Source: Deltaproteobacteria bacterium (GTDB lineage: Bacteria; Myxococcota; Myxococcia; Myxococcales; JAHFDP01). Taken from it: 33,780 nucleotides of DNA. The stretch covers positions 1 through 33,780 of the forward strand of contig JAHFDP010000046.1 in NCBI GenBank assembly GCA_023248955.1, read 5' to 3'. Below the pieces are notes generated by a model, which saw only the letters and a program-made list of their open reading frames with translations, made no database searches and had not been told where the DNA came from. How positions within the stretch are numbered: the stretch's first letter is position 1; every line of letters begins with the position of its first letter. The translations under genes were made by a program, and so were the position numbers. Of this stretch, positions 1-33,600 are shown piece by piece.

Positions 1-1410
1 TACTTTCCCATGCCGTTCCGTGAGAAGAACGGCTACGCGCCCATCGAAGATTTCCAGGCCAAGTACCGCGGGTCGGCGAGCTTTTTGCGGTTCGATCGCA
101 AAGCGGGCAACATCCTCTTGCCCGAGTCGTTCCAAATCGAGCTGCCGCCCTACTTCCAGGACATGTCCGTCCTCGGCCGCGGCCCATCGGATGGATGGCT
201 TTTTGTCAACTCCATGGACAGCGAGATGGCTATCGGTGGCGATCTAGAGAGAGAAAAGCGACCGCCGCTCGAGATTGGCGCCTCCCAGCGCGAGATGGAC
301 TACCTACACGTGATCGATTGGCACAAGGCCATCGAGGTGGCCAAAGACCCGGCGAAGTCGAAGCTGGTCAATGGCATTCGCGTGATTTCGCTGGCCACCG
401 CGATCGCCGAGAACTTGATCTTTTTCGTGCCGGAGTCCAAGAGCCCGCACGGTGTGGACATGGTCCCCGGCGGCGAATACGTGATCGTCTCCGGCAAGCT
501 CGATCCCCATGTGTCGGTCTTCAAGTTCGAGAAGATCAAGGCCGCGATCGACGCGAAGAATTTCGAAGGCAAGGACCCCTTCGGCGTTCCCATTCTCAAA
601 TACGATGCCTGCCTGGAAGCGCACGTCCAGGTCGGTCTGGGGCCGTTGCACACGGTTTTCGACGCCAACGGCAACGGCTACACGTCGCTCTTCCTCGATT
701 CGGCGGTGGCCAAGTGGACGCTTGGCCCGCCCTACAACCCACCCGAGAAGGCCTGGAAGCTCGTCGATAAAGTCGCGGTCCATTACAACATCGGTCACCT
801 GCAAGCGCCAGGTAGCAACACGCGCAAACCGACGGGCAAGTATATCGTCGCGCTCAACAAGTGGTCGGTGGATCGCTTCCCTCCGCTGGGGCCGCTCCAT
901 CCGCAGAACCTGCAGCTCATCGACATTAGCGGCCCGAAGATGGTGCTGCTCTCGGACACGCCCACCATCGGCGAGCCGCACAATTCGCAGATCATACCGG
1001 TGGAGATGCTGCAGTCGTGGACGGTCTATCCAGAGCCTGGCTTCGACGCGACCAAAATGGCCCACTCACCGGTCGCCACCGAGCAGGGCAAAGAGCGCAT
1101 CGAGCGGAAGGGCAACACCGTCACCGTTTACGGTACGGTGATTCGCTCCCACTACACGCCCGATATCGTGCGCGTGAAAGAGGGCGACAAAGTCGCTTTC
1201 CACTGGACGAACGTGGAGAGCGCGCGAGACGCCACGCACGGCTTCGGGCTGCATGGCTACAACGTCAACCTCTCCATCGATCCTGGTGCAACCGAGAGTG
1301 CGGAGATCACCGCTACGAAGGGCGGCGTCTATCCCTACTACTGCACCGAGTTCTGCTCCGCGCTCCACATGGAGATGACCGGCTGGCTGCTCGTCGAACC
1401 CAAGAAGTAG
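1..1410 (+). CDS. nosZ: Nitrous-oxide reductase NosZ, C-terminal part (5' end outside window)
   Basis: Periplasmic copper enzyme that reduces N2O to N2, the last step of denitrification. The frame is open from base 1, so 469 residues are seen of a family usually about 620-660 long; the N-terminal export signal and first propeller blades lie upstream. The visible part is the end of the seven-bladed beta-propeller, with His-containing motifs that fit CuZ ligands (EAHVQ, GPLHT, NIGHL, GEPHN), followed by a cupredoxin domain. The CuA site is complete: THGF about base 1234, then CTEFCSALHMEM at 1342-1377, giving the Cys-x3-Cys-x3-His-x2-Met ligand set. nosD starts 8 bases after the stop. The adjoining nos genes make the call very safe. 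Whether it is clade I or II cannot be read directly because the N-terminus is missing; the layout suggests clade II. Confidence 0.97.
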   Translation, partial: YFPMPFREKNGYAPIEDFQAKYRGSASFLRFDRKAGNILLPESFQIELPPYFQDMSVLGRGPSDGWLFVNSMDSEMAIGGDLEREKRPPLEIGASQREMDYLHVIDWHKAIEVAKDPAKSKLVNGIRVISLATAIAENLIFFVPESKSPHGVDMVPGGEYVIVSGKLDPHVSVFKFEKIKAAIDAKNFEGKDPFGVPILKYDACLEAHVQVGLGPLHTVFDANGNGYTSLFLDSAVAKWTLGPPYNPPEKAWKLVDKVAVHYNIGHLQAPGSNTRKPTGKYIVALNKWSVDRFPPLGPLHPQNLQLIDISGPKMVLLSDTPTIGEPHNSQIIPVEMLQSWTVYPEPGFDATKMAHSPVATEQGKERIERKGNTVTVYGTVIRSHYTPDIVRVKEGDKVAFHWTNVESARDATHGFGLHGYNVNLSIDPGATESAEITATKGGVYPYYCTEFCSALHMEMTGWLLVEPKK

Positions 1411-1418
1411 GAGCGGAC

Positions 1419-3407
1419 ATGCGCGACGGTTCATCAGAGCGGCAACCAGACGTGGCGGCGGTGGTGACGGTGTCGCTCGTTGCGGCGCTCTCGCTCGGCG
1501 CGGCCTGGATGCTGCCCTGGTGGATCATGGACGCACGTGCGCCGCAATATGGACAGCGTACGCTTACGATTGCGGTGGGGCCCCGCGCCGTCGAGGGCGA
1601 TCTGCACGAGATCGACACCCTCGGCCACTACGTTGGTATTCACCCGCTAGGCGACCTGGCGACGTTCGAGCGGAAATTTGCGCCGGTTGGTCTCATCGCA
1701 TCGGCGGCGGGACTGCTCCTCGCCGCTTGGCTACGGCGGCGCGCGTGGCGTCTGTTGGCCGTGCTTCCGGCGCTGCTTTTGCCAGCGATCTTTCTGGCGG
1801 ATCTCTCCTACTGGATGAACCGCACCGTCAACGACCGCGATGCGGACGCCGCGCTCTCCCTGACGGTTTCAGCCATCGACACCAAGTTGTTTGGCACCTA
1901 TTCGGTGGGGCAGTTTGTGATGATGGCGCGGCCCGGCGCCGGACTTTTCGCCACCGGAACGGCGGCACTCTTGGGTCTTGGGCTGGTGTTTGCGACACCG
2001 CTGGCGTTCGGGTTCAAAAGTCGCAAGAAGCGCCAGGTGCAGCCTGCGGTGACGGCTGTGGTGATCGGCACCATCCTTTGGCCCACACTCGGACGGGCCG
2101 CCGAGTACGGGGTGCGCTCCGGACAGAGCGTTGCGCAAGCGATGGCCGCAGCCGCAGAAGGCGACACGCTCAGGGTGCCGGCTGGCACTTACCACGAGCA
2201 TCTGGTCATCACGAAACGCTTGCGCCTGATCGGAGAGCCGGGCGCAATTCTCGATGGCGGCGGCAGCGGAACCGTCGTGCGCATCGAAGCGCCAAACGTC
2301 GAGCTTTGCGAGCTCTCCATTCGCGGCAGCGGCGACAGCTACACCATGGAAGACGCCGCGGTTCGCATCGATCACGCGCCCAACGTGAAGCTCTCGCGGA
2401 TCACCATCACCGATTCCCTCTTTGGAATTTTCGCCGCACAGGCCGACGATTGCGTCATCGAAAGCTCCGCGGTCGTCGGGAAAAATCTGCCGCCCGAACG
2501 GCGCGGCGACGGCATCCGCCTCTGGTATTCGAGCCGCTGCATCCTCTCCGCCAACCGCGTGATGCAGAGCCGTGACGTGGTCATCTGGTATTCGCAGGGC
2601 ACGCGGGTCGAGGACAACGTGGTGCGGGAGGGCCGCTACGGCCTGCACTACATGTATTCTGACAATAATATTTTCAAGCGCAACGTCTTCGAGGACAACC
2701 AGGTTGGCGCCACGGTGATGAACAGCCGCGGCATCGAACTTACCGACAACAGCTTTTCCTTCTCCAACGGGCCCTCGGCCTATGGGCTCTTGCTCAAGGA
2801 CGCGGACGACGTTTTCATCACGCACAACCGATTCGTGGGCAACGCCACGGCGCTCATGTTGGACGACGCGCCCGAGTCACGCGGTGGTGTGGTGCAGGTC
2901 CATCGCAACCTCATTGCGCGAAACGGCGTCGGTGTGGCAGTGCAGCCGCTCTCGCGCGGCGCGACTTTCTGGGAGAACAGCTTCGAGGAGAACCGCCTTC
3001 AGGTTCAGGTACTCGGCTCGGGCAACGCTTCCGGTGACGCCTGGGCGAAGGATGGCCGCGGTAACTATTGGAGCGACGCGGTAGTGTACGACCCGCGCGG
3101 CGATGGGGTGTCGCTCTTGCCCTACCGCGTCGAGAGCGCTTACGAGGCGCTCGCGCAACGCCGTCCGGAGCTGGCTTTTTTTGCGGGTACGCCGGCGGCG
3201 GAGGCCATCGATCAGGCGTCGCGGCTCTTCCCGCTCTTTGCGCCGCGCCCGCAGATGAGCGACCCGCATCCACTCGTCCATCCGCCTCTGGAAGTGGAGA
3301 AGACAGACCGCTCGAAAACAGGTGGCGTGGGTATGGCGGCGACCGGTGGCGGTCTGACTTTGGCGGCTGCCTGCCTGCTTCTTGTTTCGCGCCGGGTGCT
3401 CGCGTGA
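1419..3407 (+). CDS. nosD: NosD copper-site maturation protein fused to an N-terminal membrane domain
   Basis: NosD is a periplasmic right-handed beta-helix protein that works with the NosFY ABC transporter to build the NosZ copper centre. ATG at 1419 follows nosZ by 8 bases and gives 662 residues, well over the roughly 400-450 usual for NosD. Residues 230-560 hold the beta-helix (start VRSGQSVAQAM, then repeated N/D-rich turns such as DNNIFKRN), and a C-terminal membrane helix lies near 637-660. The first 200 residues are extra: hydrophobic segments at about 12-35, 89-105, 111-129 and 173-197. A fifth at 209-227, preceded by KSRKKR and ending GRAAEY, looks like the old NosD signal peptide now internal. 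I infer fusion with a separate small nos membrane protein. The stop overlaps the nosF start (GTGA). Confidence 0.9.
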   Translation: MRDGSSERQPDVAAVVTVSLVAALSLGAAWMLPWWIMDARAPQYGQRTLTIAVGPRAVEGDLHEIDTLGHYVGIHPLGDLATFERKFAPVGLIASAAGLLLAAWLRRRAWRLLAVLPALLLPAIFLADLSYWMNRTVNDRDADAALSLTVSAIDTKLFGTYSVGQFVMMARPGAGLFATGTAALLGLGLVFATPLAFGFKSRKKRQVQPAVTAVVIGTILWPTLGRAAEYGVRSGQSVAQAMAAAAEGDTLRVPAGTYHEHLVITKRLRLIGEPGAILDGGGSGTVVRIEAPNVELCELSIRGSGDSYTMEDAAVRIDHAPNVKLSRITITDSLFGIFAAQADDCVIESSAVVGKNLPPERRGDGIRLWYSSRCILSANRVMQSRDVVIWYSQGTRVEDNVVREGRYGLHYMYSDNNIFKRNVFEDNQVGATVMNSRGIELTDNSFSFSNGPSAYGLLLKDADDVFITHNRFVGNATALMLDDAPESRGGVVQVHRNLIARNGVGVAVQPLSRGATFWENSFEENRLQVQVLGSGNASGDAWAKDGRGNYWSDAVVYDPRGDGVSLLPYRVESAYEALAQRRPELAFFAGTPAAEAIDQASRLFPLFAPRPQMSDPHPLVHPPLEVEKTDRSKTGGVGMAATGGGLTLAAACLLLVSRRVLA

Positions 3408-4078
3408 TCGAAGCCGCCGATCTCACGCTCAATCTCGGAGGACGGTGCGTTCTCGACGGCGTGTCGTTTACGATCGCGGCCGGCGAAGCAGTGGCGCTGG
3501 TTGGACCGAACGGTTCGGGCAAGAGCAGTCTTTTACGCTGCCTGTTGGGACTCTTTCCCTACCAGGGTCACGTGCGGATCGCTGGTCGCGACGTGGCGCT
3601 AGAGCCCGTGGCCGCGCGCTCGCTCCTCGGCTACCTGCCCCAGCGCCCGGCGTTTGGCTTGGCAACGGCGCGCGAGGTGGTGACGTTCGCCGCGCGACTT
3701 CGGGGCGTCCGAATACAACGTATTACGGATGTATTGCACACGGTCGGGCTCGAATCGCGAGCAGACGATCGTGCTCGCGACTTTTCCGGTGGCATGCAGC
3801 AGCGCCTTTCGCTCGCCGTGGCGCTGCTCGGTGATCCGCCCGTGCTCCTCCTCGACGAACCGACGGCGAGCCTCGATCGTCATGGGCAGGACGTTTTTCT
3901 GGAAATCGTCGCGGGCCTGCGTCAACGCGGCCGGACGCTCCTCGTTGCGTCTCATCGATCCGAGGAGATTGCGCGGGTCACCGACCGAGTCCTGGCGGTC
4001 GAAGACGGGAACGTCCTGCACGTCGCGCGAAATGTTCCGCTTACCGCGCTGGCGATCGTTCCGGGAGTGGCCTCGTGA
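3404..4078 (+). CDS. nosF: ABC transporter ATP-binding protein NosF
   Basis: ATPase subunit of the NosFY(D) transporter needed to mature the CuZ centre of NosZ; it acts on the cytoplasmic face of the inner membrane. The start is GTG at 3404, overlapping the nosD stop by four bases, and gives 224 residues. All nucleotide-binding motifs are present: Walker A GPNGSGKS (34-41), Q-loop YLPQ (Q80), ABC signature FSGGMQQ (127-133), Walker B VLLLDEP (147-153) and the switch histidine in ASHRS (H184). It is somewhat shorter than many NosF proteins (about 300 residues), which usually carry a C-terminal extension. A longer upstream reading frame exists but runs inside nosD and is not used. Function rests on family membership plus position between nosD and nosY. 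Confidence 0.93.
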   Translation: MIEAADLTLNLGGRCVLDGVSFTIAAGEAVALVGPNGSGKSSLLRCLLGLFPYQGHVRIAGRDVALEPVAARSLLGYLPQRPAFGLATAREVVTFAARLRGVRIQRITDVLHTVGLESRADDRARDFSGGMQQRLSLAVALLGDPPVLLLDEPTASLDRHGQDVFLEIVAGLRQRGRTLLVASHRSEEIARVTDRVLAVEDGNVLHVARNVPLTALAIVPGVAS

Positions 4079-4908
4079 GGTTAACGCCGATCGCGTTGGT
4101 GGCCGCGCGAGAAATTCGGGAAGCCTTGCGCAGCCGCTGGTTTCTGATTTGCGCCGGTGCTTTCTGCACGCTGTCGTTGGGTCTCGCGTTGTTGGGCCTC
4201 GCCGGATCGCAGCGCGCGGGCCTGGCTGGCTACGATCGGACCACGGCCAGCCTCCTCGCGCTTGCACTCTTGTTCGTTCCACTCTTGGGGCTAGCGTTGG
4301 GTTCGGCAAGCCTGGCCGGCGAGCTCGAAGACGGCGCGCTTGGATTGTTGCTCGCGCAGCCGCTTACTCGTTTGGAGGTCTACGCCGGCAAGTACGCGGG
4401 GCTCTTTGGCGCGATCGCCGCCGCGGTTCTTCTGGGATTCGGCGCTACCGGACTCATTGTCGGGTTGTCGGCTGGCAGCGATCACGTCGGCGCGTTTCTG
4501 GCCTTGGTTGGCGTGGTGCTTTTGCTCGCGGCCGCTTCGCTGGCCATGGGCGTGGCGCTCTCGGCGGCGCTGCGCTCGCGCGCGAAAGCGGCGGGCGCGG
4601 CCTTCGCAGCGTGGCTAGTGCTCGTCTACCTTTCTGATCTCGGTTCTATTGGACTCGTCCTCGCGCGCGAGCTTTCGCCGGAACAACTCTTTGGCGTGGC
4701 GATGGCCAATCCCGTGCAGCAAGCGCGCGTCCTGGGCATGCTGGCGCTCACCGATCGGCTCGAACTGCTCGGCACGGTGGGCGCCTTCGGAATTGATCAC
4801 TTTGGTGTGAGTGGTCTCGCCGCGCTTCTTGGCTCGACGCTTGTTTTTGGCGCATTGACCACCCTCACCGCCGGATACGTTGGGTTTCGGAGGACGCCGG
4901 TGCCATGA
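4075..4908 (+). CDS. nosY: ABC transporter permease NosY
   Basis: Membrane subunit partnering NosF in NosZ copper-centre assembly. The GTG start at 4075 overlaps the nosF stop (GTGA), and 277 residues match the usual NosY size. The sequence begins with the motif ALVAAREIREALRSRW typical of ABC-2 permeases, followed by six likely membrane segments near residues 20-44, 60-80, 105-135, 143-163, 176-200 and 245-268. The segment GELEDGALGLLLAQPLTR is the cytoplasmic coupling region found in this permease family. The stop overlaps the nosL start (ATGA). High confidence from the context and the sequence type. Confidence 0.92.
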   Translation: MRLTPIALVAAREIREALRSRWFLICAGAFCTLSLGLALLGLAGSQRAGLAGYDRTTASLLALALLFVPLLGLALGSASLAGELEDGALGLLLAQPLTRLEVYAGKYAGLFGAIAAAVLLGFGATGLIVGLSAGSDHVGAFLALVGVVLLLAAASLAMGVALSAALRSRAKAAGAAFAAWLVLVYLSDLGSIGLVLARELSPEQLFGVAMANPVQQARVLGMLALTDRLELLGTVGAFGIDHFGVSGLAALLGSTLVFGALTTLTAGYVGFRRTPVP

Positions 4909-5381
4909 AGACCGTCTTTGCTCTCGTCGCAGTCCTGTTCTTCGCCGCACTGCTCCTGTGGCCGCGCGCCGCAAGGGAAGGTCCGGTGCTAATCGCTTAC
5001 GGCAAAGACGGCTGCGCGCACTGTCGCATGATCATCAGCGAGCGCGGGCTCGGCGGTGAACTTCGCGACGGTCACGGCACGCTGACGAAATACGACGACG
5101 TGGGTTGTCTGCTTCTTTCGCTCTGGCAGCGGCACGAAGAGGTCCCCGAAGCATGGGTTGAAGATCACGCGGGCGGTGGTTTTGTTCCACTGCTCGCGGC
5201 GCGATTCGTGCGCGGTGGCCGGGTGACCACGCCGATGGGCTACGGCGTTGTGGCCTTTCGCGACGAGGCCGCCGCCAGAACCTTTGCGCAAGAGCAGCAA
5301 GCCCAGGTCGCCACGCTCGAAGATCTCTTGCGGGACAAAGATCGCTTTGCCGGAAAACAGCCGCACGCGGGGTCGCCATGA
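4905..5381 (+). CDS. nosL: NosL copper chaperone
   Basis: NosL binds Cu(I) outside the inner membrane and delivers it to the NosZ maturation system. The protein has 158 residues. The copper-binding motif is GCAHCRM (C37, C40, M42), and the later TPMGYGVVAF is the conserved C-terminal NosL segment. Unlike many NosL proteins, which are lipoproteins, this one has no lipobox: residues 3-19 are a plain hydrophobic helix ending in WPRAAREG, so it is either membrane-anchored by an uncleaved helix or released by signal peptidase I. It overlaps nosY by ATGA at its start and the cytochrome gene by ATGA at its end, which indicates translational coupling across the operon. Confidence 0.93.
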   Translation: MKTVFALVAVLFFAALLLWPRAAREGPVLIAYGKDGCAHCRMIISERGLGGELRDGHGTLTKYDDVGCLLLSLWQRHEEVPEAWVEDHAGGGFVPLLAARFVRGGRVTTPMGYGVVAFRDEAAARTFAQEQQAQVATLEDLLRDKDRFAGKQPHAGSP

Positions 5382-6730
5382 GAAGCGGAGCAGTCACGGC
5401 CATACTCGTCCTATCGACAGCAGCGGTCGCCGACGAATCGCTGAACGGTCCGCCCCGGCCGCTTAGTGATGAGGATGCCAAAGCCGGTAAGCCGCTCTAT
5501 CTGCGCGAGTGCAGCGCCTGTCACGGGGATCGAGGCGATGGTGCCGGACCGGCCGCGGCTTTCCTCGATCCGAAACCGCGTAATTTCACCAAGCGTATTT
5601 TCAAGCTCCGCACCACCGAATCGGGACAGCAGCCCACCACCGCCGATCTCCTGGGCACGGTGGAGCGCGGCATTCCCGGATCGGCGATGCCGGCGTTTCG
5701 CTTTCTCCCAGAGGAGGAACGGCGCCGCATCGTTGCCTACGTCTTGCGATTGGCTGATCTGGCGGACGATCCCGAGCCGAAGCCGATCGCCGATCCCGGA
5801 GTGCCGCCAACACCCACACCCGCGTCGCTCACGCGCGGCAAGGCCGTCTACGCCGAGATGGGTTGCGCCAGTTGCCATGGCACGGGAGGAAGAGGCGACG
5901 GCGACTCGGCCAAGGATCTCAAAGACGACGACGGCAACCACATCCCCGTTCGCGATTTCACCGGCGGCCAATTTCGCGGTGGCGGCGATCGAATCGACCT
6001 CTACTACCGCTTCGTGACGGGCATGGACGGTTCTCCGATGCCGTCATTTGCCCAGTCCATCGATGGCGCGGATCGCTGGGCGCTCGTCGACTATGTGATG
6101 TCGCTGAAGGTGGTACCGCCAGCGGTACCGTTGCCCAAGGATCCGATCAAGGCCGGCCGAATGGTGACCGCGAAATACAGCTGCCGTGGCTGCCACGTTC
6201 TCGACGATGGCAAAGGCGGTGAGGTCGGTCCAGACTTGCGCGTGTCGGGGCAAAAGCTCGGCAGCGATTGGGTGCGAACGTTCCTAGCGGACCCACGCGG
6301 GTACGGAAAGATCTATCCGTGGCGCGTTTGGCGAATGCCGCACCTGGGCCTCGAAGGTGAAGAGGTCCAAGTGTTGGCGCGTTACCTCGCGGCGATGGGC
6401 AAACGCGCGGACGGGCCCGCCAAGACGCCCGATGTTGCGACCTTTCCGGCGGCGCGAATCGAGGAAGGCAAATCGCTTTTTACGTTGCGCTGCACCGAAT
6501 GCCATGCGTTGGGGAAGGTGATCGAGACGCCCCTCGCCAAGCAGCAGGGCCCCGATCTCATCCGCGTCGCTGGGAGGGTCGATTACGATTGGGCAAAAAA
6601 GTGGATCTTGGATCCGAAAAAGATCGATCCCAAAACGAAAATGACCGTTCCTGGAATTACGCCTGACCAGATCGATTCGGTGCGGATGTTCGTCTGGAAG
6701 TCTGCGGTCGACGCCAATTCCGAACGGTAG
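5378..6730 (+). CDS. Periplasmic tetra-haem c-type cytochrome of the nos operon
   Basis: Four CxxCH haem-binding motifs are visible: CSACH (45-49), CASCH (163-167), CRGCH (269-273) and CTECH (372-376). Each sits in its own class-I type domain of about 100 residues, with downstream methionines (for example SAMPAF, SPMPSF and WRMPHL) as likely axial ligands. Residues 1-19 form a Sec signal ending AVADES, so it is periplasmic. The 450 residues are best seen as four fused mono-haem cytochromes. Its ATG overlaps the nosL stop. I infer that it carries electrons to NosZ, comparable in role to the NosC cytochromes of other nos operons, but the four-domain layout is not a standard NosC. No gene symbol is assigned because orthology cannot be shown from the sequence alone. 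Confidence 0.88.
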   Translation: MRSGAVTAILVLSTAAVADESLNGPPRPLSDEDAKAGKPLYLRECSACHGDRGDGAGPAAAFLDPKPRNFTKRIFKLRTTESGQQPTTADLLGTVERGIPGSAMPAFRFLPEEERRRIVAYVLRLADLADDPEPKPIADPGVPPTPTPASLTRGKAVYAEMGCASCHGTGGRGDGDSAKDLKDDDGNHIPVRDFTGGQFRGGGDRIDLYYRFVTGMDGSPMPSFAQSIDGADRWALVDYVMSLKVVPPAVPLPKDPIKAGRMVTAKYSCRGCHVLDDGKGGEVGPDLRVSGQKLGSDWVRTFLADPRGYGKIYPWRVWRMPHLGLEGEEVQVLARYLAAMGKRADGPAKTPDVATFPAARIEEGKSLFTLRCTECHALGKVIETPLAKQQGPDLIRVAGRVDYDWAKKWILDPKKIDPKTKMTVPGITPDQIDSVRMFVWKSAVDANSER

Positions 6731-13623: not shown

Positions 13624-15771
13624 ATGCCGCGGGCGCATGTGGCGCGAGTCGGAGCGCGCGGGCCCAAGACGCGCGTCGTCGTTATCGGCGGCGGAATGGC
13701 GGGGCTCACCGCCGCCTCCTGTCTCACCGAGACGCCGGAGCTGCGACGGCGTTTCGACGTTAGCGTCTACCAGCTCGGATGGCGGCTCGGCGGCAAAGTA
13801 GCCAGCGGCCGCAATACTGCCGTTCATGACCGCAACGAGGAGCATGGCCTTCACGTTCTCTTCGGCTGCTACGAAAACACGTTCGGGCTCATCGCCCAGA
13901 CATGGGCCGAACGGCCCGCGATGGCTGGGTCCCCGTTTCCAACGTGGCAAGATGCATTTCGGCGCCAGGACTTCGCGGTCTTTGGCGACCTCCCCGATGG
14001 ACCAGGCCGTCGGCACTGGAGGCTTCCCTGGCCCAGGAATTCCGATGCGCTGCCCTCTGGCGCGCTGGTCACGCCCTGGGGCGCCGTCACTCACCTGTTC
14101 GGAATTGCCACCTGGGCCGTACAAGTCCTCGCCGACGCCGTGCGAAAACAGGGCGGAGCGCTCCCGCCTTCGCCGGAGGGCATGCCTTCCTGGCTAACCA
14201 CGCGGCTTGCCCAAACGGTGCGCTGGCTCTCTGACCCCAAGCTCGTTCTCGGACATGCCCAGGGATGGTTGTCGGTCGCCAGCGCGCTGGCCCAATCGCT
14301 CACGGACCCGGCCCAATCCAAAGACGAGCAAGACGCTGCGGGGCTTTTACTCTTGGCGGCCAAAGCGCGCGCCCTGCTGCGCAACGCTGCCGCCGACGAG
14401 ATCCGAAAGGACACCTACCTGCGCCGCGTTTGGGTGCTCGCGGATCTCACGTTGGCGTTCGTGCGTGGCATGTTGAACCCAGCGTATGGAATTTACCGCG
14501 ACTGGGATTTGAGTCGCATCGACCACCTGGAATTTTCCGACTGGCTCGCCAAAAACGGCGCGCACCGCGACGCGCTCGATGCGGGCCTGGTCCGCGGCAT
14601 CTATCACACCGTCTTTAGCTTCGGAGGCCAAGGCCAGGACGAGCGCGACATCGCCGCCGGGGCCGGCATTCGCTTCGTCTTGCGCATTATCGGCACCTAC
14701 AAGGGCTCGGTGCTCTACCTTCCGCGCGCGGGCATGGGCGAGCTGGTGGTCGCACCGGTCTACGAGGTTCTGCGCCAGCGCGGTGTGAAGTTCCATTTCT
14801 TCCGCAAACTGAGCAACGTCTTACCTGCTTCCGACGGAAGGTCCGTGGCGCGCTTCGACTTCGAAGTCCAAGCGCGCGAGAAACGCCCTTACGAGCCGCT
14901 GATCGCAGCAGGTGGGCTTCGCTGCTGGCCGGCCGCTCCGTTGTGGGATCAACTCGAAGATGGGGATCGGATGGCCAAGGCCGCCGTCGATTTCGAGTCG
15001 ACTTGGTGCCGGTGGCCGGCGGCTGCCCGAGAGAGCTTGAGCGCGGGGCGCGATTTCGACTTGAGTGTGCTCGCTCTGCCGATCGGCGCGCTCAAGAAGC
15101 TCAACGGCGATCCGACGCCCGCTGACGCCTTGGCTTTGCACAGCGAGCGACTGCGCGAGTCGCTTTCTAAAATTGGCGTGGCGCCCTCGCTTGCCGCGCA
15201 GTTGTGGCTCTCCAAGGATCTCGCCGAGCTTGGTTGGCGGCACGCGCGTGCGGCCATGGTCGCCGGCCCGCCACCGCTCGACATTTGGGCCGACATGAGC
15301 GACGTCCTGGCGACGGAAGCCGGAGTCCCGGCGCGCTCGCTTCACTATTTCTGCGGGACGTTGCACACCGATCTCCATCTTCGCCCGAGTGCACACGCCG
15401 GTGTCGCTGCCGAGGCGCAGGCACTCGCCCAGCGGGAAACCGATCGCTGGCTGGTGGACCACGCCCAGGCAATCTGGCCGGGCGCCTGCGCAGGTGGCGC
15501 GTTCGACTTTTCGAACCTCTCGGGTCAATTCGTGCGGGCCAACGTCGATCGCTCCTCGCTCTGCGCGCGCGCGACGGCGAAGACCATCACCGCGCGCCTC
15601 GATTGCGATGCTTCCGGATTCGACAACCTCTTTCTCGCGGGAGCTTGGCACAAAACTGGGCTGAACATGGAGTGCCTCGAAGCCGCCGTCATGTCGGGGA
15701 TGGAGTGCGCGCGCGCCGTTTCTGGCAGCCCCACGCGCGTGGTGGGCGAAGCTTTCATGCAGCGCCGGTGA
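13624..15771 (+). CDS. FAD-dependent oxidoreductase (amine-oxidase/phytoene-desaturase-like), copy 1
   Basis: 715 residues. The N-terminal Rossmann dinucleotide motif VVVIGGGMAGLTAA (18-31) follows RGPKTR, and the next conserved block VSVYQLGWRLGGK ... HGLHVLFGCYEN is the FAD-contact region of the phytoene desaturase/hydroxysqualene dehydroxylase superfamily. The mid part GMGELVVAPVYEVLRQRGVKFHFF and the end NLFLAGAWHKTGLNMECLEAAVMSG (FAD-binding C-terminal motif) are kept. The substrate is unknown; relatives act on isoprenoid or other lipid-like molecules. The start is uncertain: no ribosome-binding site precedes ATG 13624, and GTG 13636 is an alternative. A diverged paralogue follows 16 bases later, and a decarboxylase-domain gene converges on them. 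Confidence 0.85.
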   Translation: MPRAHVARVGARGPKTRVVVIGGGMAGLTAASCLTETPELRRRFDVSVYQLGWRLGGKVASGRNTAVHDRNEEHGLHVLFGCYENTFGLIAQTWAERPAMAGSPFPTWQDAFRRQDFAVFGDLPDGPGRRHWRLPWPRNSDALPSGALVTPWGAVTHLFGIATWAVQVLADAVRKQGGALPPSPEGMPSWLTTRLAQTVRWLSDPKLVLGHAQGWLSVASALAQSLTDPAQSKDEQDAAGLLLLAAKARALLRNAAADEIRKDTYLRRVWVLADLTLAFVRGMLNPAYGIYRDWDLSRIDHLEFSDWLAKNGAHRDALDAGLVRGIYHTVFSFGGQGQDERDIAAGAGIRFVLRIIGTYKGSVLYLPRAGMGELVVAPVYEVLRQRGVKFHFFRKLSNVLPASDGRSVARFDFEVQAREKRPYEPLIAAGGLRCWPAAPLWDQLEDGDRMAKAAVDFESTWCRWPAAARESLSAGRDFDLSVLALPIGALKKLNGDPTPADALALHSERLRESLSKIGVAPSLAAQLWLSKDLAELGWRHARAAMVAGPPPLDIWADMSDVLATEAGVPARSLHYFCGTLHTDLHLRPSAHAGVAAEAQALAQRETDRWLVDHAQAIWPGACAGGAFDFSNLSGQFVRANVDRSSLCARATAKTITARLDCDASGFDNLFLAGAWHKTGLNMECLEAAVMSGMECARAVSGSPTRVVGEAFMQRR

Positions 15772-15787: not shown

Positions 15788-17611
15788 GTGACGACCGAGA
15801 AACAGACCCGAGTGGCTATTCTCGGCGGCGGTTGTGGCGCGATGGCTGCGGCCTTTGCACTCACGGCCACGCCCGAGTTGCGCCGGCGCTATGCCGTTAC
15901 GGTCTATCAGCGCGGCTTTCGGCTTGGCGGAAAAGGGGCCAGCGGCCGCAACCTCGAACGGCACGGACGCATCGAAGAGCACGGCATGCACATGTGGATG
16001 GGCTGGTATCAAAACGCTTTTCGGCTCCTGCGCGACTGCTACGCCGAGCGACGGCCCACGCCGCAAAATCCGCTCCAGCAATTTTCCGATGCCTTCACGC
16101 CGCAGCGCCGCGTCACGCTTCCGGAACCCGACGGCAACGGAGGATGGCGCCACTGGAACGTGGACTTTCCGCTTCTCCCTGGAGCGCCCGGCGACGAAGG
16201 CCCGGCACTTTCGGTGTCCCGCTTGGTTCCGCAGTTTTTGGCTTGGTTGCGATCGGCGGCAACTTCCGCGGGCCTTCGACAGGCGCCGGTGTTGCTCGAT
16301 CTGGGCGCCGCCATTGTGCGCGGGCTCGTGCTCGACGTGCTACCGCCGCTCGGGCGAGGCTTTGAGAGCATCGACGACGTCGAGCTCCGCGACTGGCTGG
16401 TGCGGCACGGTGCACGGCGGGAGAACACCTGGGCCCAGCCCATTCGCGCGATGTACACGATCGCGTTTTCATTTCTCGGTGGCGCGGCGTGTGACCCGGA
16501 GCGCGCGCGCATCGCCGCCGGTGTCGGGCTTCGGACGTGCCTGCTGATGGCGCTTGCCAACCGCGGCGCCCCGCTGTGGCGAATGAACGGAGGCATGGGC
16601 GACGTGGTCTTCGCGCCGCTCCATGAGGTGCTCGCCCAGCGTGGTGTTCGTTTCGAGTTCTTTCATCAAGTCGAGGCGCTGCGGCTCGCGTCGGATCGAC
16701 GCGCCATCGACTCCATCGAAGTCATTCGGCAAGCGCGCGCGAAAAACGGATCTTACGCGCCGCTTGTGGAAGTTCGCGGGATGCCGTGCTGGCCGTCGCG
16801 CCCGCTCTTTGCGCAACTCGCCCACGGTGAAGTGCTCGAGGCGAGCGGGGTAGACCTCGAGTTTGGCGACGTTCCCGCGCTCTCCGAAAAGCGCGTGCTG
16901 CGCAGCGGCGAAGACTTCGACGCTCTGGTCCTTGGCATTTCCCTCGGCGCGCTGCCAAAAATCGGTGCCGAGCTCGTCGCGGAGAGCAGCCGCTGGCAGC
17001 GCATGGTTGAAGGCATTCCCACCGTGGCCACACAAGCGGCCCAGCTCTGGTTCGCCAAATCTTTTGGTGGGCGCGCCTCTGGATGGGAGCCGACGGTCGC
17101 CTCGGCGCATGCTCCGCCCTTCGACTCGTGGGGTGACATGTCCCATCTCCTCGACAGCGAGAACTGGCCTCGGAAGGATGCTCCAAAGTCCATCGCCTAC
17201 CTCTGCGCCTGTCTCGAGGATATGTCGAGCGGCGCTGCGGAAACGTCGCCGCTCTCGCCCTCTGCCTCGACCGAACGGATCGAGCGCCAGGTCCGGACGT
17301 GGCTCGATCAGCAGGCCGCGACGACTTGGCCCGGCCTGCGAACCCCAGAGGGAAAATTCGATTTCGACCAGATCACGGATCACTATTTTCGCGCCAACGT
17401 GGACCCCAGTGATAGGTACGTCCTGACCCCGCCCGGGACGCCGTCACTGCGCCTTCACCCGGGCGATTCTGGTTTTGAAAATCTTTTTCTAGCGGGCGAC
17501 TGGACGTGGACACCGCTTTCTTGCAGTTGCGTCGAGGCCGCGGTGCAGAGCGGACTGCTCGCCGCGCAGGCCATTTCAGGCGCTCCGCGCAAGCTCCTCA
17601 GTAATTTTTAG
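15788..17611 (+). CDS. FAD-dependent oxidoreductase (amine-oxidase/phytoene-desaturase-like), copy 2
   Basis: 607 residues from GTG 15788. Same architecture as the gene before it: Rossmann motif VAILGGGCGAMAAAFAL, with Ala at the last glycine position, FAD-contact block VTVYQRGFRLGGKGASGR and HGMHMWMGWYQN, then MNGGMGDVVFAPLHEVLAQ, VRGMPCWPSRPL and the C-terminal FENLFLAGDWTWTPLSCSCVEA. It is about 110 residues shorter than copy 1, mainly in the middle helical region. The two are clearly paralogous but well diverged, so the duplication is old and the products may act in series or as a heterodimer. The stop codon overlaps by two bases the stop of the convergent decarboxylase-domain gene. Substrate unknown. 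Confidence 0.87.
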   Translation: MTTEKQTRVAILGGGCGAMAAAFALTATPELRRRYAVTVYQRGFRLGGKGASGRNLERHGRIEEHGMHMWMGWYQNAFRLLRDCYAERRPTPQNPLQQFSDAFTPQRRVTLPEPDGNGGWRHWNVDFPLLPGAPGDEGPALSVSRLVPQFLAWLRSAATSAGLRQAPVLLDLGAAIVRGLVLDVLPPLGRGFESIDDVELRDWLVRHGARRENTWAQPIRAMYTIAFSFLGGAACDPERARIAAGVGLRTCLLMALANRGAPLWRMNGGMGDVVFAPLHEVLAQRGVRFEFFHQVEALRLASDRRAIDSIEVIRQARAKNGSYAPLVEVRGMPCWPSRPLFAQLAHGEVLEASGVDLEFGDVPALSEKRVLRSGEDFDALVLGISLGALPKIGAELVAESSRWQRMVEGIPTVATQAAQLWFAKSFGGRASGWEPTVASAHAPPFDSWGDMSHLLDSENWPRKDAPKSIAYLCACLEDMSSGAAETSPLSPSASTERIERQVRTWLDQQAATTWPGLRTPEGKFDFDQITDHYFRANVDPSDRYVLTPPGTPSLRLHPGDSGFENLFLAGDWTWTPLSCSCVEAAVQSGLLAAQAISGAPRKLLSNF

Positions 17612-18939
17612 AGAAACCGGCGCAGCTGCGACCGCACTCTGCCGAGAAGGCCGGCGGACGCGCCAAGATCTTCCGGCAAGTAGTCTCGGCGGACCTGGCC
17701 CGCACCCAGCGTGAAACCCAAGCGGCAACGAAAGGCCGCGACGCATTCTCCGCCAACAAAAAAGGTGGGGTCGAAGAAGCGGAGGGCCGGGTTTTCAAGC
17801 AATGTGAACTCGCTCATCGGGTGAAGGCGAAAGGGAACCTCGACCAGTTGGTCAACCTGGAGGGTTCGCTCGCCGATCGAATTCGCCGCTGGAATTTGCT
17901 TGCGAACAAACACGCGAACCTGTGGCCCATGCGCAAGAACCACCTCGCGGTTGGCGAGTGCAAACAGATGGCCTGCGAGACCGCCGAGCGGCTGCGGTAG
18001 CGCGCCCAGCGGAGAGACGGATCCGAGAAGCGCCTCGGCGTAGGGTGCGGCTTCCACCGATCGCTCCGCGTCCCAGCGTGCTTGCAGGAGCAGTCGATTC
18101 CCCACGAAGAGCTCGACATGACGATCGCCGAGCGTGACCCGGCCGAAGCGCTTGGGGAACCCATAAATTTCGCGACCCAGTGCGATCGCCAAATACGCGT
18201 CCGGGTAGACCTCTGGCGTGTAGACACCCGGGCGAAACAAGCTGTCGACGCAGGGAATGAACGGCGTGGCCTCTTGGTAAGCGAAGACGCGCCCCGCTGC
18301 CTGCGGATGGGCGCTGCGTCCTCCCGAGATGAAACTGAAGGAGAGCAGGTAGCGACCGCCGAGGCCGGGAATCGGACGCAACCCTGGCGGGAGGAGGGCT
18401 TCGAGCCGCCGTGGATCGTCCTCCATGATGAACAACGACATCGGGAACGGCGGAAACTCGTAGGGGCCCGGGATGAGACGCGCGTTGGGTGATTCGAAAA
18501 AATCGTCGAACGATTCGAGCATGTCGAATTGCGCGTCGTAGAGGCCGCGCGTTTCGTGGGCGAGTTCACGGAGCACGTGGCGAGCGAACGTGGGGCTTGT
18601 CTCGAGCAGCTTGTCGAAGCAGTCGCGATCGATGGAGGCGATTTCAACGGGCGTGAGTGTTTTGACGGACGCGGAACGGCGACCACGATCGACGAGGCTA
18701 ACGAGCCCGACGGATCGGGGCGCGTCGAGGAGCGTCACCACGCGGCCATCGCGAAGAACCGCCAGCTCGCCGCTCAACAAAAAGATCAGCCGAGAGCCCT
18801 CGCCTCCAGCACGGATGACCTCCATCTCCGAGGGAAGGGATTCGTAGGCGACCGACTTTCGCACAAGTTCTTCCGCGCTCGGTTCGAGGCCCGCCAGCAA
18901 GGGAATGCGCGTCAGAACTTCGCGGGGGGCGCCGGTCAT
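17608..18939 (-). CDS. Cyclic-nucleotide-binding domain fused to acetoacetate-decarboxylase-like domain
   Basis: 443 residues starting MTGAPREV at 18939; a much longer open frame upstream is antisense shadow of the CLC gene and not used. Residues about 8-140 are a CNMP/CRP-type beta-roll (LAGLEPSAEEL ... GGEGSRLIFLLSGELAVL ... RSASVKTLTPVEIASID), with no DNA-binding helix-turn-helix after it. Residues about 165-440 are an acetoacetate-decarboxylase-family domain: FPPFPMSLFIM, PGVYTPEVYPDAYLAIALGREIYGFPKRFG. In the last block the Lys of PKR matches the Schiff-base lysine of the decarboxylase, with Arg in place of the second Lys. The enzyme may thus be gated by a nucleotide or other ligand. It lies 17 bases behind the CLC gene and converges on the FAD oxidoreductases. 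The true substrate is unknown. Confidence 0.85.
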   Translation of the reverse strand: MTGAPREVLTRIPLLAGLEPSAEELVRKSVAYESLPSEMEVIRAGGEGSRLIFLLSGELAVLRDGRVVTLLDAPRSVGLVSLVDRGRRSASVKTLTPVEIASIDRDCFDKLLETSPTFARHVLRELAHETRGLYDAQFDMLESFDDFFESPNARLIPGPYEFPPFPMSLFIMEDDPRRLEALLPPGLRPIPGLGGRYLLSFSFISGGRSAHPQAAGRVFAYQEATPFIPCVDSLFRPGVYTPEVYPDAYLAIALGREIYGFPKRFGRVTLGDRHVELFVGNRLLLQARWDAERSVEAAPYAEALLGSVSPLGALPQPLGGLAGHLFALANREVVLAHGPQVRVFVRKQIPAANSIGERTLQVDQLVEVPFRLHPMSEFTLLENPALRFFDPTFFVGGECVAAFRCRLGFTLGAGQVRRDYLPEDLGASAGLLGRVRSQLRRFL

Positions 18940-31625: not shown

Positions 31626-32042
31626 CTAAATCAATGTGTTCTGCGCGCCGCGAGGGACCGCCAATTCAAGATGAATGAAGGCCTGCGGCGTGGCAACCCG
31701 ACCACGCGGTGTCCGTTGCAGAAGTCCCTGACGGAGAAGAAACGGTTCGTAGACATCTTCCACGGTCTCGGATTGTTCACCGACGACCGCAGCGATGGTG
31801 TCCAAGCCGACCGGTCCGCCTCCAAATTTTTCGCAGATGGTTTGCAGAATTCGCCGATCCATCGGGTCGAGACCCGAGGCATCGACCTGGAGCCGAGAGA
31901 GCGCACGATCCGCCACGGCCTGGTTGACACGGCCGTCGCCATCGACCTCCGCGAAATCGCGCACCCGGCGCAAGAGGCGGTTGGCGATGCGGGGCGTCCC
32001 CCTCGAGCGTCGCGCAATCTCGCGCGCACCGTCACTGTCTAG
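31626..32042 (-). pseudogene. C-terminal third of ruvB, fused to an RCC1 repeat
   Basis: From about 32040 the minus strand encodes [86 protein letters not shown] and stop at 31626. This is the arginine-finger-containing small ATPase domain and winged-helix domain of the Holliday-junction motor RuvB. The N-terminal Walker A and B domain is absent. Directly before it, in frame, is an RCC1 repeat ([21 protein letters not shown]). With no Walker motifs it cannot act as a motor. The full ruvB must be elsewhere if the cell is normal. Confidence 0.85.
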
Positions 32043-33600
32043 TTGACCAAAATCACCCCATCCCCAACACTTCATCCCGCCATTGACGAGCGCGCAATTG
32101 TGCTCCCAGCCATCCCGAGCGCGGTGACTCCACTCGTCAAACCGACAACCTGCACCGGAACCAGGCTGTTGTTGGTGCTGTTGTTTCCAAGCTGGCCGTG
32201 CTGATTCCATCCCCAACATTGAACGCCGCTGTTCACCACGGCGCAGCCCCCGTCTTGAAACGCAGCGAGCGCCAAAACTCAACCGGTTAGTCCTGAGACT
32301 TGGACAGGTACGTGGCTTTCGTTCGCCGCGTTGTTTCCAAGCTGGCCAAAGGTTCCGGCTCCCCAGCATTGAACACCACCGTTGACGAGCGCGCAGGAGA
32401 AGTGCCCTCCCGTCACCACCGTCTGAACGCCCGAGGAGAGACCGTAGACCGGCTTCGGAACAAGCCGAGGGTTACTCGTGGTGTTGTCGCCGATCTGGCC
32501 GTAGTCGTTTGCCCCCCAACACTGCGCGCCCCCGTTCACCACGGCGCAAACCTGGTCATCACCGCCGGAGATGTTTGGGCCGGTCACGTAATTGCTCGCC
32601 GCGGGGCTCAAGGTGGTCTCCACGATCGTGCCAATTCCCGTGGCGTTTCCCAAGGTCGCGTTAGCGGGGTTCGAAATCGTCACCAAGAACTTGAGATTTC
32701 CCAGGTAGCCCGAATGCGCCAACGTGGTGACCACGACGTCCATCGCCGTCTTACCCACAGCGATTGTCCCGGTCGCCGACAAGCTGGTGTAATCCGTTCC
32801 CGCTTTGGCGGTTCCATCGTGCGTGACGTAGTCGAACGTCACGTCGGCATTGATTGCGGCGCTCAGGGTTACCTTGAACGTGATGGGATCACCTTCGTTG
32901 GCCCAGGCTGCCGCGGTGATCGAGAGCGTTGGCTTTTTGCAAAGGAGTCCCGCGCAAAGACCCGATTGGCAGTCGGCATTCACTAGGCAGTCGAGCCCGT
33001 CCGCGCACGGGCCATACGAACCGCCGCAGTCAACGTCCGTTTCGCTGCCATTCTTGAGGGTGTCGCTGCACGGTGGCGCTACGCACATTCCTTCGATGCA
33101 CCGGTCGCTGGCATTGCACTTCTTGCCGCAGCCGCCACAATTTGTTTCATCGGACTCGACAAAAACGCAAGTCCCGGAACAGTCCTTCTGTTCGGGCGCA
33201 CACGGCTGCAACGTCCGCCCACCAGCGACACCGCGACCTGGCGCGCGGAATCGACGTCGGTCTCGAGGATCAGCGATGCACCGTCGGCCCCTTCGCTACC
33301 GGCACCGACGTAGGTGACCGAGAGCGTAGCGCTTTGACTGGGCCGCAGATCCTGGAGCGCGTCAGGGAAAGCACCGAGCTGAAACGTGGAGCGCACGTCA
33401 TGAACGATGCTCGCCTTGCTCACATGCAACGCCGCCTGCCCATCGTTGCTGATGGTAACGACGAGTTTGCTGCTGGCCCCTGGGCGGACGTTGCCGAAAT
33501 CGAGCACAGGTGGGGTTACGTTGATGGAAAGCCGGGCGCCGCGCACCGATCCCGAACGACAGCCAGCGGCGAGAAGAGCGAAAACAATGAGCCGTTTCAT
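32043..33600 (-). pseudogene. Broken RCC1/Calx-beta surface lipoprotein gene
   Basis: Starts at ATG 33600 with the lipoprotein signal MKRLIVFALLAAGC and a Hydin/ASPM-type Ig domain (VTPPVLDFGNVRPGASSKLVV). A one-base deletion near 33215-33222 shifts the frame. It continues with a Cys-rich segment (CGGCGKKC, GSETDVDCGG, CQSGLC), a Calx-beta domain (LSITAAAWANEGDPITFKVTL ... GTDYTSLSATGTIAVG) and RCC1 repeats ([42 protein letters not shown]). An in-frame TGA at 32279-32281 interrupts these, the next repeat follows in the same frame, and a second indel near 32115 precedes the junction with ruvB. Three lesions and the fusion mark a pseudogene. The intact form would be an outer-membrane-anchored protein ending in an RCC1 propeller. 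Confidence 0.8.

Follow-up and report, generated by a model that had tools for sequence, protein, structure and literature searches.

A cyclic-nucleotide-type beta-roll fused to an acetoacetate-decarboxylase-superfamily domain in Myxococcota and Chloroflexota, with FAD oxidoreductase genes as recurrent neighbours

The stretch of DNA analysed here (the window) is a complete bacterial contig of 33,780 nucleotides, in which a single ATG-started reading frame, called at exactly 17608-18939 on the minus strand, encodes a protein that joins a beta-roll of the CRP/cNMP type to a domain of the acetoacetate decarboxylase (ADC) superfamily. A CLC gene on the same strand precedes it, with 17 bp between the CLC stop and the fusion gene. 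On its other side the fusion gene is convergent with the nearer of two FAD oxidoreductase genes, the pair overlapping by 4 bp at their 3' ends. No RNA element or riboswitch was found in the window at Rfam gathering scores. The features are as follows.

13624..15771, plus strand: paralogous FAD oxidoreductase, 715 aa, in tandem with the 607-aa gene and 36% identical to it
15788..17611, plus strand: HpnE/phytoene-desaturase-like FAD oxidoreductase, 607 aa (Pfam Amino_oxidase)
17608..18939, minus strand: roll-ADC gene, 443 aa, ATG at 18939, stop at 17608
18595..18927, minus strand: CRP/cNMP-type beta-roll, residues 5-115 (Pfam PF00027, PDB matches to M. tuberculosis CRP, AlphaFold2, Foldseek)
18667..18711, minus strand: degenerate phosphate-binding cassette, VGLVSLVDRGRRSAS (ungapped alignment with M. 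tuberculosis CRP, family table)
18703-18705, minus strand: L79, in place of the cassette Glu
18676-18678, minus strand: R88, the kept cassette Arg
18505..18594, minus strand: long helix, residues 116-145 (AlphaFold2 secondary structure; position of the CRP C-helix)
17683..18504, minus strand: ADC-superfamily domain, residues 146-419 (Pfam PF06314, PDB alignments, Foldseek, family table)
18445-18447, minus strand: F165, in place of Arg29 of the Clostridium acetobutylicum enzyme (CaADC), in the ADC domain
18271-18273, minus strand: E223, equivalent to CaADC Glu76, in the ADC domain
18151-18153, minus strand: K263, the Schiff-base lysine of the ADC domain, followed by R264

Both halves of the protein score above their Pfam gathering cut-offs, cNMP_binding (PF00027) at residues 35-114 with 44.9 bits (E 1.2e-11, cut-off 27.5) and ADC (PF06314) at residues 173-297 with 51.3 bits (E 1.5e-13, cut-off 29.8). 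When the halves were searched against the PDB with phmmer, the N-terminal one matched M. tuberculosis CRP (E 2e-10) and the C-terminal one matched ADC-family structures. An AlphaFold2 model of the 443-residue protein, built from 19 homologues, has a pLDDT of 84.9 and a pTM of 0.79, and in it a beta-roll is followed by a C-helix of 30 residues and then by an ADC fold. Using Foldseek, the model retrieved ADC-family structures first and CRP-type structures next, with TM-scores by target of 0.71-0.76 for most of the ADC-family entries listed (3bgt, 3bh2, 3c8w, 5upb, 6eej; 0.73-0.76 for 3c8w, 3bgt and 3bh2) and of about 0.5-0.7 for the CRP-type entries. In the model the long helix runs into the ADC domain and not into a helix-turn-helix (HTH), and Pfam and Foldseek likewise place the ADC domain, instead of a C-terminal DNA-binding HTH, where CRP/FNR proteins carry one. 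Nor is the protein an acetyltransferase of the Pat/Kat type, as NCBIfam ActPatMycb56 scores 11.5 bits against a cut-off of 460, there is no GNAT domain and the enzyme half is ADC. The two folds and their order, a cNMP roll and then an ADC domain, are therefore as the original prediction had them.

The fusion is real and it recurs. A family-alignment scan of 84,980 species genomes returned 32 related loci, and beyond the window the fusion is present in about 20 other genomes, comprising nine loci of the Myxococcota clade (36-43% identical to the window protein), one unplaced proteobacterial bin (L026) and ten Chloroflexota loci, which are Anaerolineae and of which two have broken frames. Family HMMs found the roll and the ADC domain together in 20/20 fusion loci, with only an ADC fragment in the same frame as the roll in L036. 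The search for this domain pair that was originally suggested thus gives a positive answer, and because of this recurrence we reject a chance or chimeric reading frame. The domain order is the same throughout these loci, and in the Myxococcota the DDFFESPNARLVPGPY linker recurs as well. Within the window's own phylum, 4/195 genomes have the fusion at such similarity, counting that of the window, and three of these four are also among the loci of the larger scan. A maximum-likelihood tree of the ADC part places the window protein inside a Myxococcota clade (support 99/97), with L026 as its sister (92/85) and the Chloroflexota proteins as a second clade (87/92). The deep branches are without resolution, so the tree does not settle on a single origin of the fusion, and one origin or two would fit alike. 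Mean pairwise identity within Myxococcota is 0.37 for the roll, 0.42 for the helix and 0.45 for the ADC part, the roll being nearly as constrained as the rest of the protein. A mobile or viral source was considered and rejected: the fusion and its FAD neighbours have no relatives in viral contigs and the fusion has no plasmid match.

In the C. acetobutylicum enzyme, Lys115, Lys116, Arg29 and Glu76 have roles in the active site. The Schiff-base lysine (K263) and the Glu76 equivalent (E223) are present in 19/19 aligned homologues, and the PKR lysine on which the original prediction relied is indeed retained at K263-R264. Where acetoacetate decarboxylases read PKK, however, the window protein reads PKR, such that the second lysine (Lys116) is replaced by R264, and the position of Arg29 is taken by F165 and is Arg in 0/19. 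Profile, fold, Schiff-base lysine and Glu partner all agree with the ADC superfamily (PF06314), which also includes aldolase/dehydratases such as MppR (summarised in PMC7820114). By Foldseek, the structures of MppR and of the Sbi aldolase-dehydratase are nearly as close to our model as those of the decarboxylases. Because Arg29 is absent and the aldolase/dehydratase folds are nearly as close, the protein is filed as a putative ADC-superfamily enzyme and not as an acetoacetate decarboxylase (EC 4.1.1.4). With F165 at the Arg29 position, true acetoacetate decarboxylation is not supported, although the Lys and Glu76 equivalents are invariant, and acetoacetate is probably not what the enzyme acts on.

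The roll was compared residue by residue with M. tuberculosis CRP, whose cassette FGELSIFDPGPRTSS aligns without gaps to that of the window protein, and with a family table of 19 aligned sequences (ten Myxococcota, L026 and eight Chloroflexota). The cassette Glu, which contacts the ribose, is found in 0/19; its position is Leu in all Myxococcota and in L026 (L79 in the window), and in L027 a Gly-Glu is present, but several columns shifted. The cassette Arg, which contacts the phosphate, is kept in 9/10 Myxococcota, as is the R[ST]AS stretch, and it is absent from L026 and from the Chloroflexota; in the latter the family table has the whole cassette degenerate. An inspection of the Arg and Glu, as originally proposed, therefore gives a divided result, with the Glu lost from all homologues but the Arg kept by most Myxococcota. 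As a control, the Glu is kept in 12/14 of the other cNMP domains of the same genome (read by eye), and the window roll is the weakest-scoring of the 15. Four class III cyclases are encoded in this genome, and therefore cyclic nucleotides are probably made by the organism. Since the cassette Glu is lost in 19/19 while 12/14 of the controls keep it, a canonical cAMP switch in this protein is unlikely. For a Plasmodium cyclic-nucleotide-binding domain, the loss of cassette residues has been interpreted as an absence of binding (PMC12422582), and the CNNM4 homology domain binds neither cAMP nor cGMP by ITC and NMR and forms homodimers (PMC6940986). Weak nucleotide binding might persist in some rolls that lack the Glu. 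For the Myxococcota roll, the kept Arg and R[ST]AS hint at a ligand of another kind, anionic or phosphorylated, and the Chloroflexota roll may only hold an oligomer together. Taken as a whole, the roll probably responds to another signal or serves to keep the enzyme assembled.

In 14 fusion loci (the window, L018-L025, L027, L029, L030, L032 and L033) the ADC gene has a FAD gene next to it, either of the window type or of a related, shorter kind. Three loci (L026, L031 and L034) are clearly without a FAD gene nearby, and four further fusion loci are uninformative or broken in this respect. FAD genes also pair with stand-alone ADC genes in Bacteroidota, Actinomycetota and Alpha-, Beta- and Gammaproteobacteria (L040, L041, L043, L045, and Azospirillum and Catenovulum plasmids), and the Azospirillum pair is adjoined by a gene of the FadL type (outer membrane protein transport). 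A FAD partner is not a property of ADCs in general, as it was found at 1/30 stand-alone Myxococcota ADC loci (L089; 1.5 kb flanks), and the pairing is therefore a feature of particular ADC lineages. The FAD genes of the window are convergent to the ADC gene and do not form one operon with it. The CLC channel was considered as a functional partner and set aside, since no other homologue has a CLC gene next to it. With the HpnE profile (TIGR03467) the two FAD neighbours score 66.6 and 71.6 bits against a curated cut-off of 283, and the best Foldseek match of the 607-aa protein is a plant phytoene desaturase (5mog, TM by target 0.74), from a model with a pLDDT of only 71. It is from this fold similarity and from the neighbours that an isoprenoid link of the FAD/ADC pair may be proposed.

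A second kind of neighbour is a signalling protein with an AAA_16 domain. Genes for Ser/Thr-kinase-AAA_16 proteins lie beside the fusion in L018, L019, L020, L023 and L024, cyclase-AAA_16-TPR genes lie beside stand-alone ADC-FAD pairs in L040, L043 and L045, and the Azospirillum pair has a kinase-AAA_16-GAF-PAS-HATPase gene alongside. There is no such kinase- or cyclase-AAA_16 gene in the 33.8 kb of the window, which is the whole contig, and no kinase-AAA_16 gene near L021 or L022, so that this neighbour cannot be taken as a rule. These genomes are rich in AAA_16 proteins. A rough chance estimate from AAA_16 densities, which for L021 and L022 were assumed, gave P = 2e-4 for at least six of nine lineages, a value that is only indicative, as the pattern had already been noticed when the test was devised.

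CRP-type rolls gate transcription factors, channels and kinases, and rarely enzymes. The original prediction treated the first three as the normal partners, which is too narrow, because cAMP-activated acetyltransferases, MtKat (Rv0998) and MsKat (MSMEG_5458), carry a cNMP domain before the enzyme (PMC5861322). Like the window protein, these have an N-terminal cNMP beta-roll joined directly to a small enzyme domain, but theirs is a GNAT acetyltransferase activated by cAMP, whereas the window protein has a domain of the ADC family and lacks the cassette Glu. M. tuberculosis CRP (3h3u, 3d0s, 4a2u) is the best sequence match of the roll and among the best by fold, and has a C-helix after the roll; it differs in its HTH and in its intact cassette sequence. 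The roll also resembles the CNBH domain of CNNM4 (6G52), a cNMP fold that dimerises without binding cyclic nucleotides (PMC6940986), although CNNM4 is a human mediator of magnesium transport and has no enzyme domain. Acetoacetate decarboxylases and their near relatives (3bh2, 3bgt/3bh3, 3c8w) have the fold, the catalytic lysine and the Glu76 equivalent in common with the window protein, which departs from them in lacking Arg29, in having Arg for the second Lys of PKK, in its N-terminal roll and in an identity of 16-20%. MppR (4jm3-4jme), Sbi (4zbo/4zbt/6eej) and Swit_4259 (5upb) share the fold and the Schiff-base lysine with a chemistry that is not acetoacetate decarboxylation and, unlike the window protein, their structures have no roll. 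The FAD proteins of the window share a flavin amine-oxidase fold with HpnE, a hydroxysqualene dehydroxylase, and with 5mog, the former being the best NCBIfam match and the latter the best by fold, but they fall far below the HpnE cut-off (67-72 bits) and have 607-715 aa against a model of 430 positions.

We propose that the fusion protein is a Schiff-base enzyme of the ADC superfamily, with a non-canonical sensing or dimerising roll, acting in a lipophilic pathway together with the FAD enzyme, a reading to which we give a probability of roughly 0.55. In such a protein the ADC domain would form the Schiff base via K263, with E223 beside it, and the roll and C-helix would dimerise the enzyme. 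Where CRP signals to its HTH, the roll may signal to the ADC domain, the signal being presumably other than canonical cAMP or cGMP. The protein would more likely act on a carbonyl intermediate as an aldolase, dehydratase or decarboxylase, in a lipophilic (isoprenoid- or lipid-like) pathway shared with the HpnE/phytoene-desaturase-like oxidoreductases. The allosteric control of a small-molecule enzyme that was originally predicted is thus retained in so far as a regulatory roll is plausible, but its cyclic-nucleotide part is not supported, given the loss of the Glu in 19/19, the loss of the Arg in L026 and Chloroflexota and the genome controls.

It could be argued instead that cAMP or cGMP, bound by the roll, acts as an on/off switch for an acetoacetate-type decarboxylase, in the manner of cAMP in the mycobacterial Pat/Kat proteins. 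The roll is above its Pfam cut-off, the phosphate-contacting Arg and the S-A-S after it are kept, the genome has four class III cyclases, cNMP-gated enzymes have a proven precedent (PMC5861322) and cyclase-AAA_16 genes adjoin stand-alone ADC-FAD pairs in other phyla. We nevertheless consider this quite unlikely, as all Myxococcota members have Leu in place of the ribose-contacting Glu and none of the other homologues has the Glu either, the Chloroflexota cassette is wholly degenerate, the window roll is the weakest of the 15 cNMP matches in its genome and the Arg29 of true decarboxylases is missing. The same losses can be read as those of a purely structural module that binds no nucleotide and only dimerises the enzyme, since the roll is conserved even though the Glu is lost everywhere and both Glu and Arg are lost in Chloroflexota; the long C-helix in the model and the homodimers of CNNM4 (PMC6940986) are consistent with this. 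R[ST]AS, kept in 9/10 Myxococcota, would be needless in a mere dimerisation domain, and we regard this reading as possible, if somewhat doubtful.

A further alternative is that the ADC domain is a ligand sensor and not an enzyme, the roll-ADC and FAD proteins belonging to a signalling module with STAND-type kinase or cyclase proteins. The kinase-AAA_16 genes beside five of the fusions, the cyclase- and kinase-AAA_16 genes beside four stand-alone ADC-FAD pairs and the rough chance estimate all point in this direction. Against it, the catalytic Lys and Glu are invariant, which is not required of a pure sensor, the window copy, L021 and L022 have no such gene near them and AAA_16 proteins are common in these genomes, and we hold it to be very unlikely. 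A broader reading, which we put forward as rather doubtful, is that an ADC-like and an HpnE/phytoene-desaturase-like FAD protein would together constitute an undescribed metabolic module of two genes, widespread and connected to signal transduction, for the synthesis, breakdown or sensing of a lipophilic and perhaps isoprenoid molecule. In several phyla this module would be linked to STAND-type kinase- or cyclase-AAA_16 proteins, and a CRP-type roll, acquired in Myxococcota and Chloroflexota, would read a new ligand, not a cyclic nucleotide, to gate the ADC chemistry.

A cNMP roll placed before an enzyme is already known from MtKat and MsKat (PMC5861322), and in the open-access literature we found no paper joining an acetoacetate decarboxylase with a cyclic-nucleotide-binding domain. 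What is new here, besides this combination, is the FAD gene beside most of the fusion loci and the kinase- or cyclase-AAA_16 protein alongside several of them and also alongside stand-alone ADCs. If our proposal is true, the DNA-binding half of CRP has been swapped for a Schiff-base enzyme and the cassette Glu lost, which would make the protein a clean natural test of what else such a roll can sense. It is the wider association of ADC, FAD and signalling genes that most deserves specialist attention, as the conserved partner genes would give a handle on the substrate class and the regulators of a branch of the ADC superfamily for which we found no described function.

The window carries a nos-type gene cluster, comprising a NosZ-propeller/cupredoxin protein, NosD, an ABC-2 permease and a multi-domain cytochrome c, and a ruvB of which only the 3' part, encoding the lid and C-terminal domains, is present, with an RCC1/Calx-beta protein read upstream of it. 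Either this ruvB is truncated, or the contig is joined chimerically near 32.3 kb.

Window 10-6730, plus strand: nos-type gene cluster
Window 31626-33211, minus strand: partial ruvB and RCC1/Calx-beta reading

Two Chloroflexota fusion genes are each broken across two frames (L035:5566-6806 and L036:1027-2270), by either sequencing error or decay. The N-terminal stretch differs in a Pseudomonadota ADC protein (locus L038) and is putatively transthyretin-like, as judged by eye; this ADC lineage may have taken up various beta domains.

L038:5065-6819: ADC gene
L038:6842-8395: FAD gene, short type, directly downstream
L027:8905-10158 (Anaerolineae): cNMP-HisKA-HATPase histidine kinase, immediately following the ADC-FAD pair

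In Myxococcota, Bacteroidota, Actinomycetota and Proteobacteria the ADC-FAD pair is adjoined by genes for large STAND-type proteins, of Ser/Thr kinase-AAA_16 or class III cyclase-AAA_16-TPR make-up.

STAND-type genes, by locus
L018:8865-12584
L019:8974-12609
L020:9086-12898
L023:7196-12786
L024:5659-7299
L040:2383-5700
L043:2699-5779
L045:2409-5621
L098:661-6444

Together, the ADC-FAD pair and the STAND-type protein possibly constitute an undescribed signalling-metabolic module.
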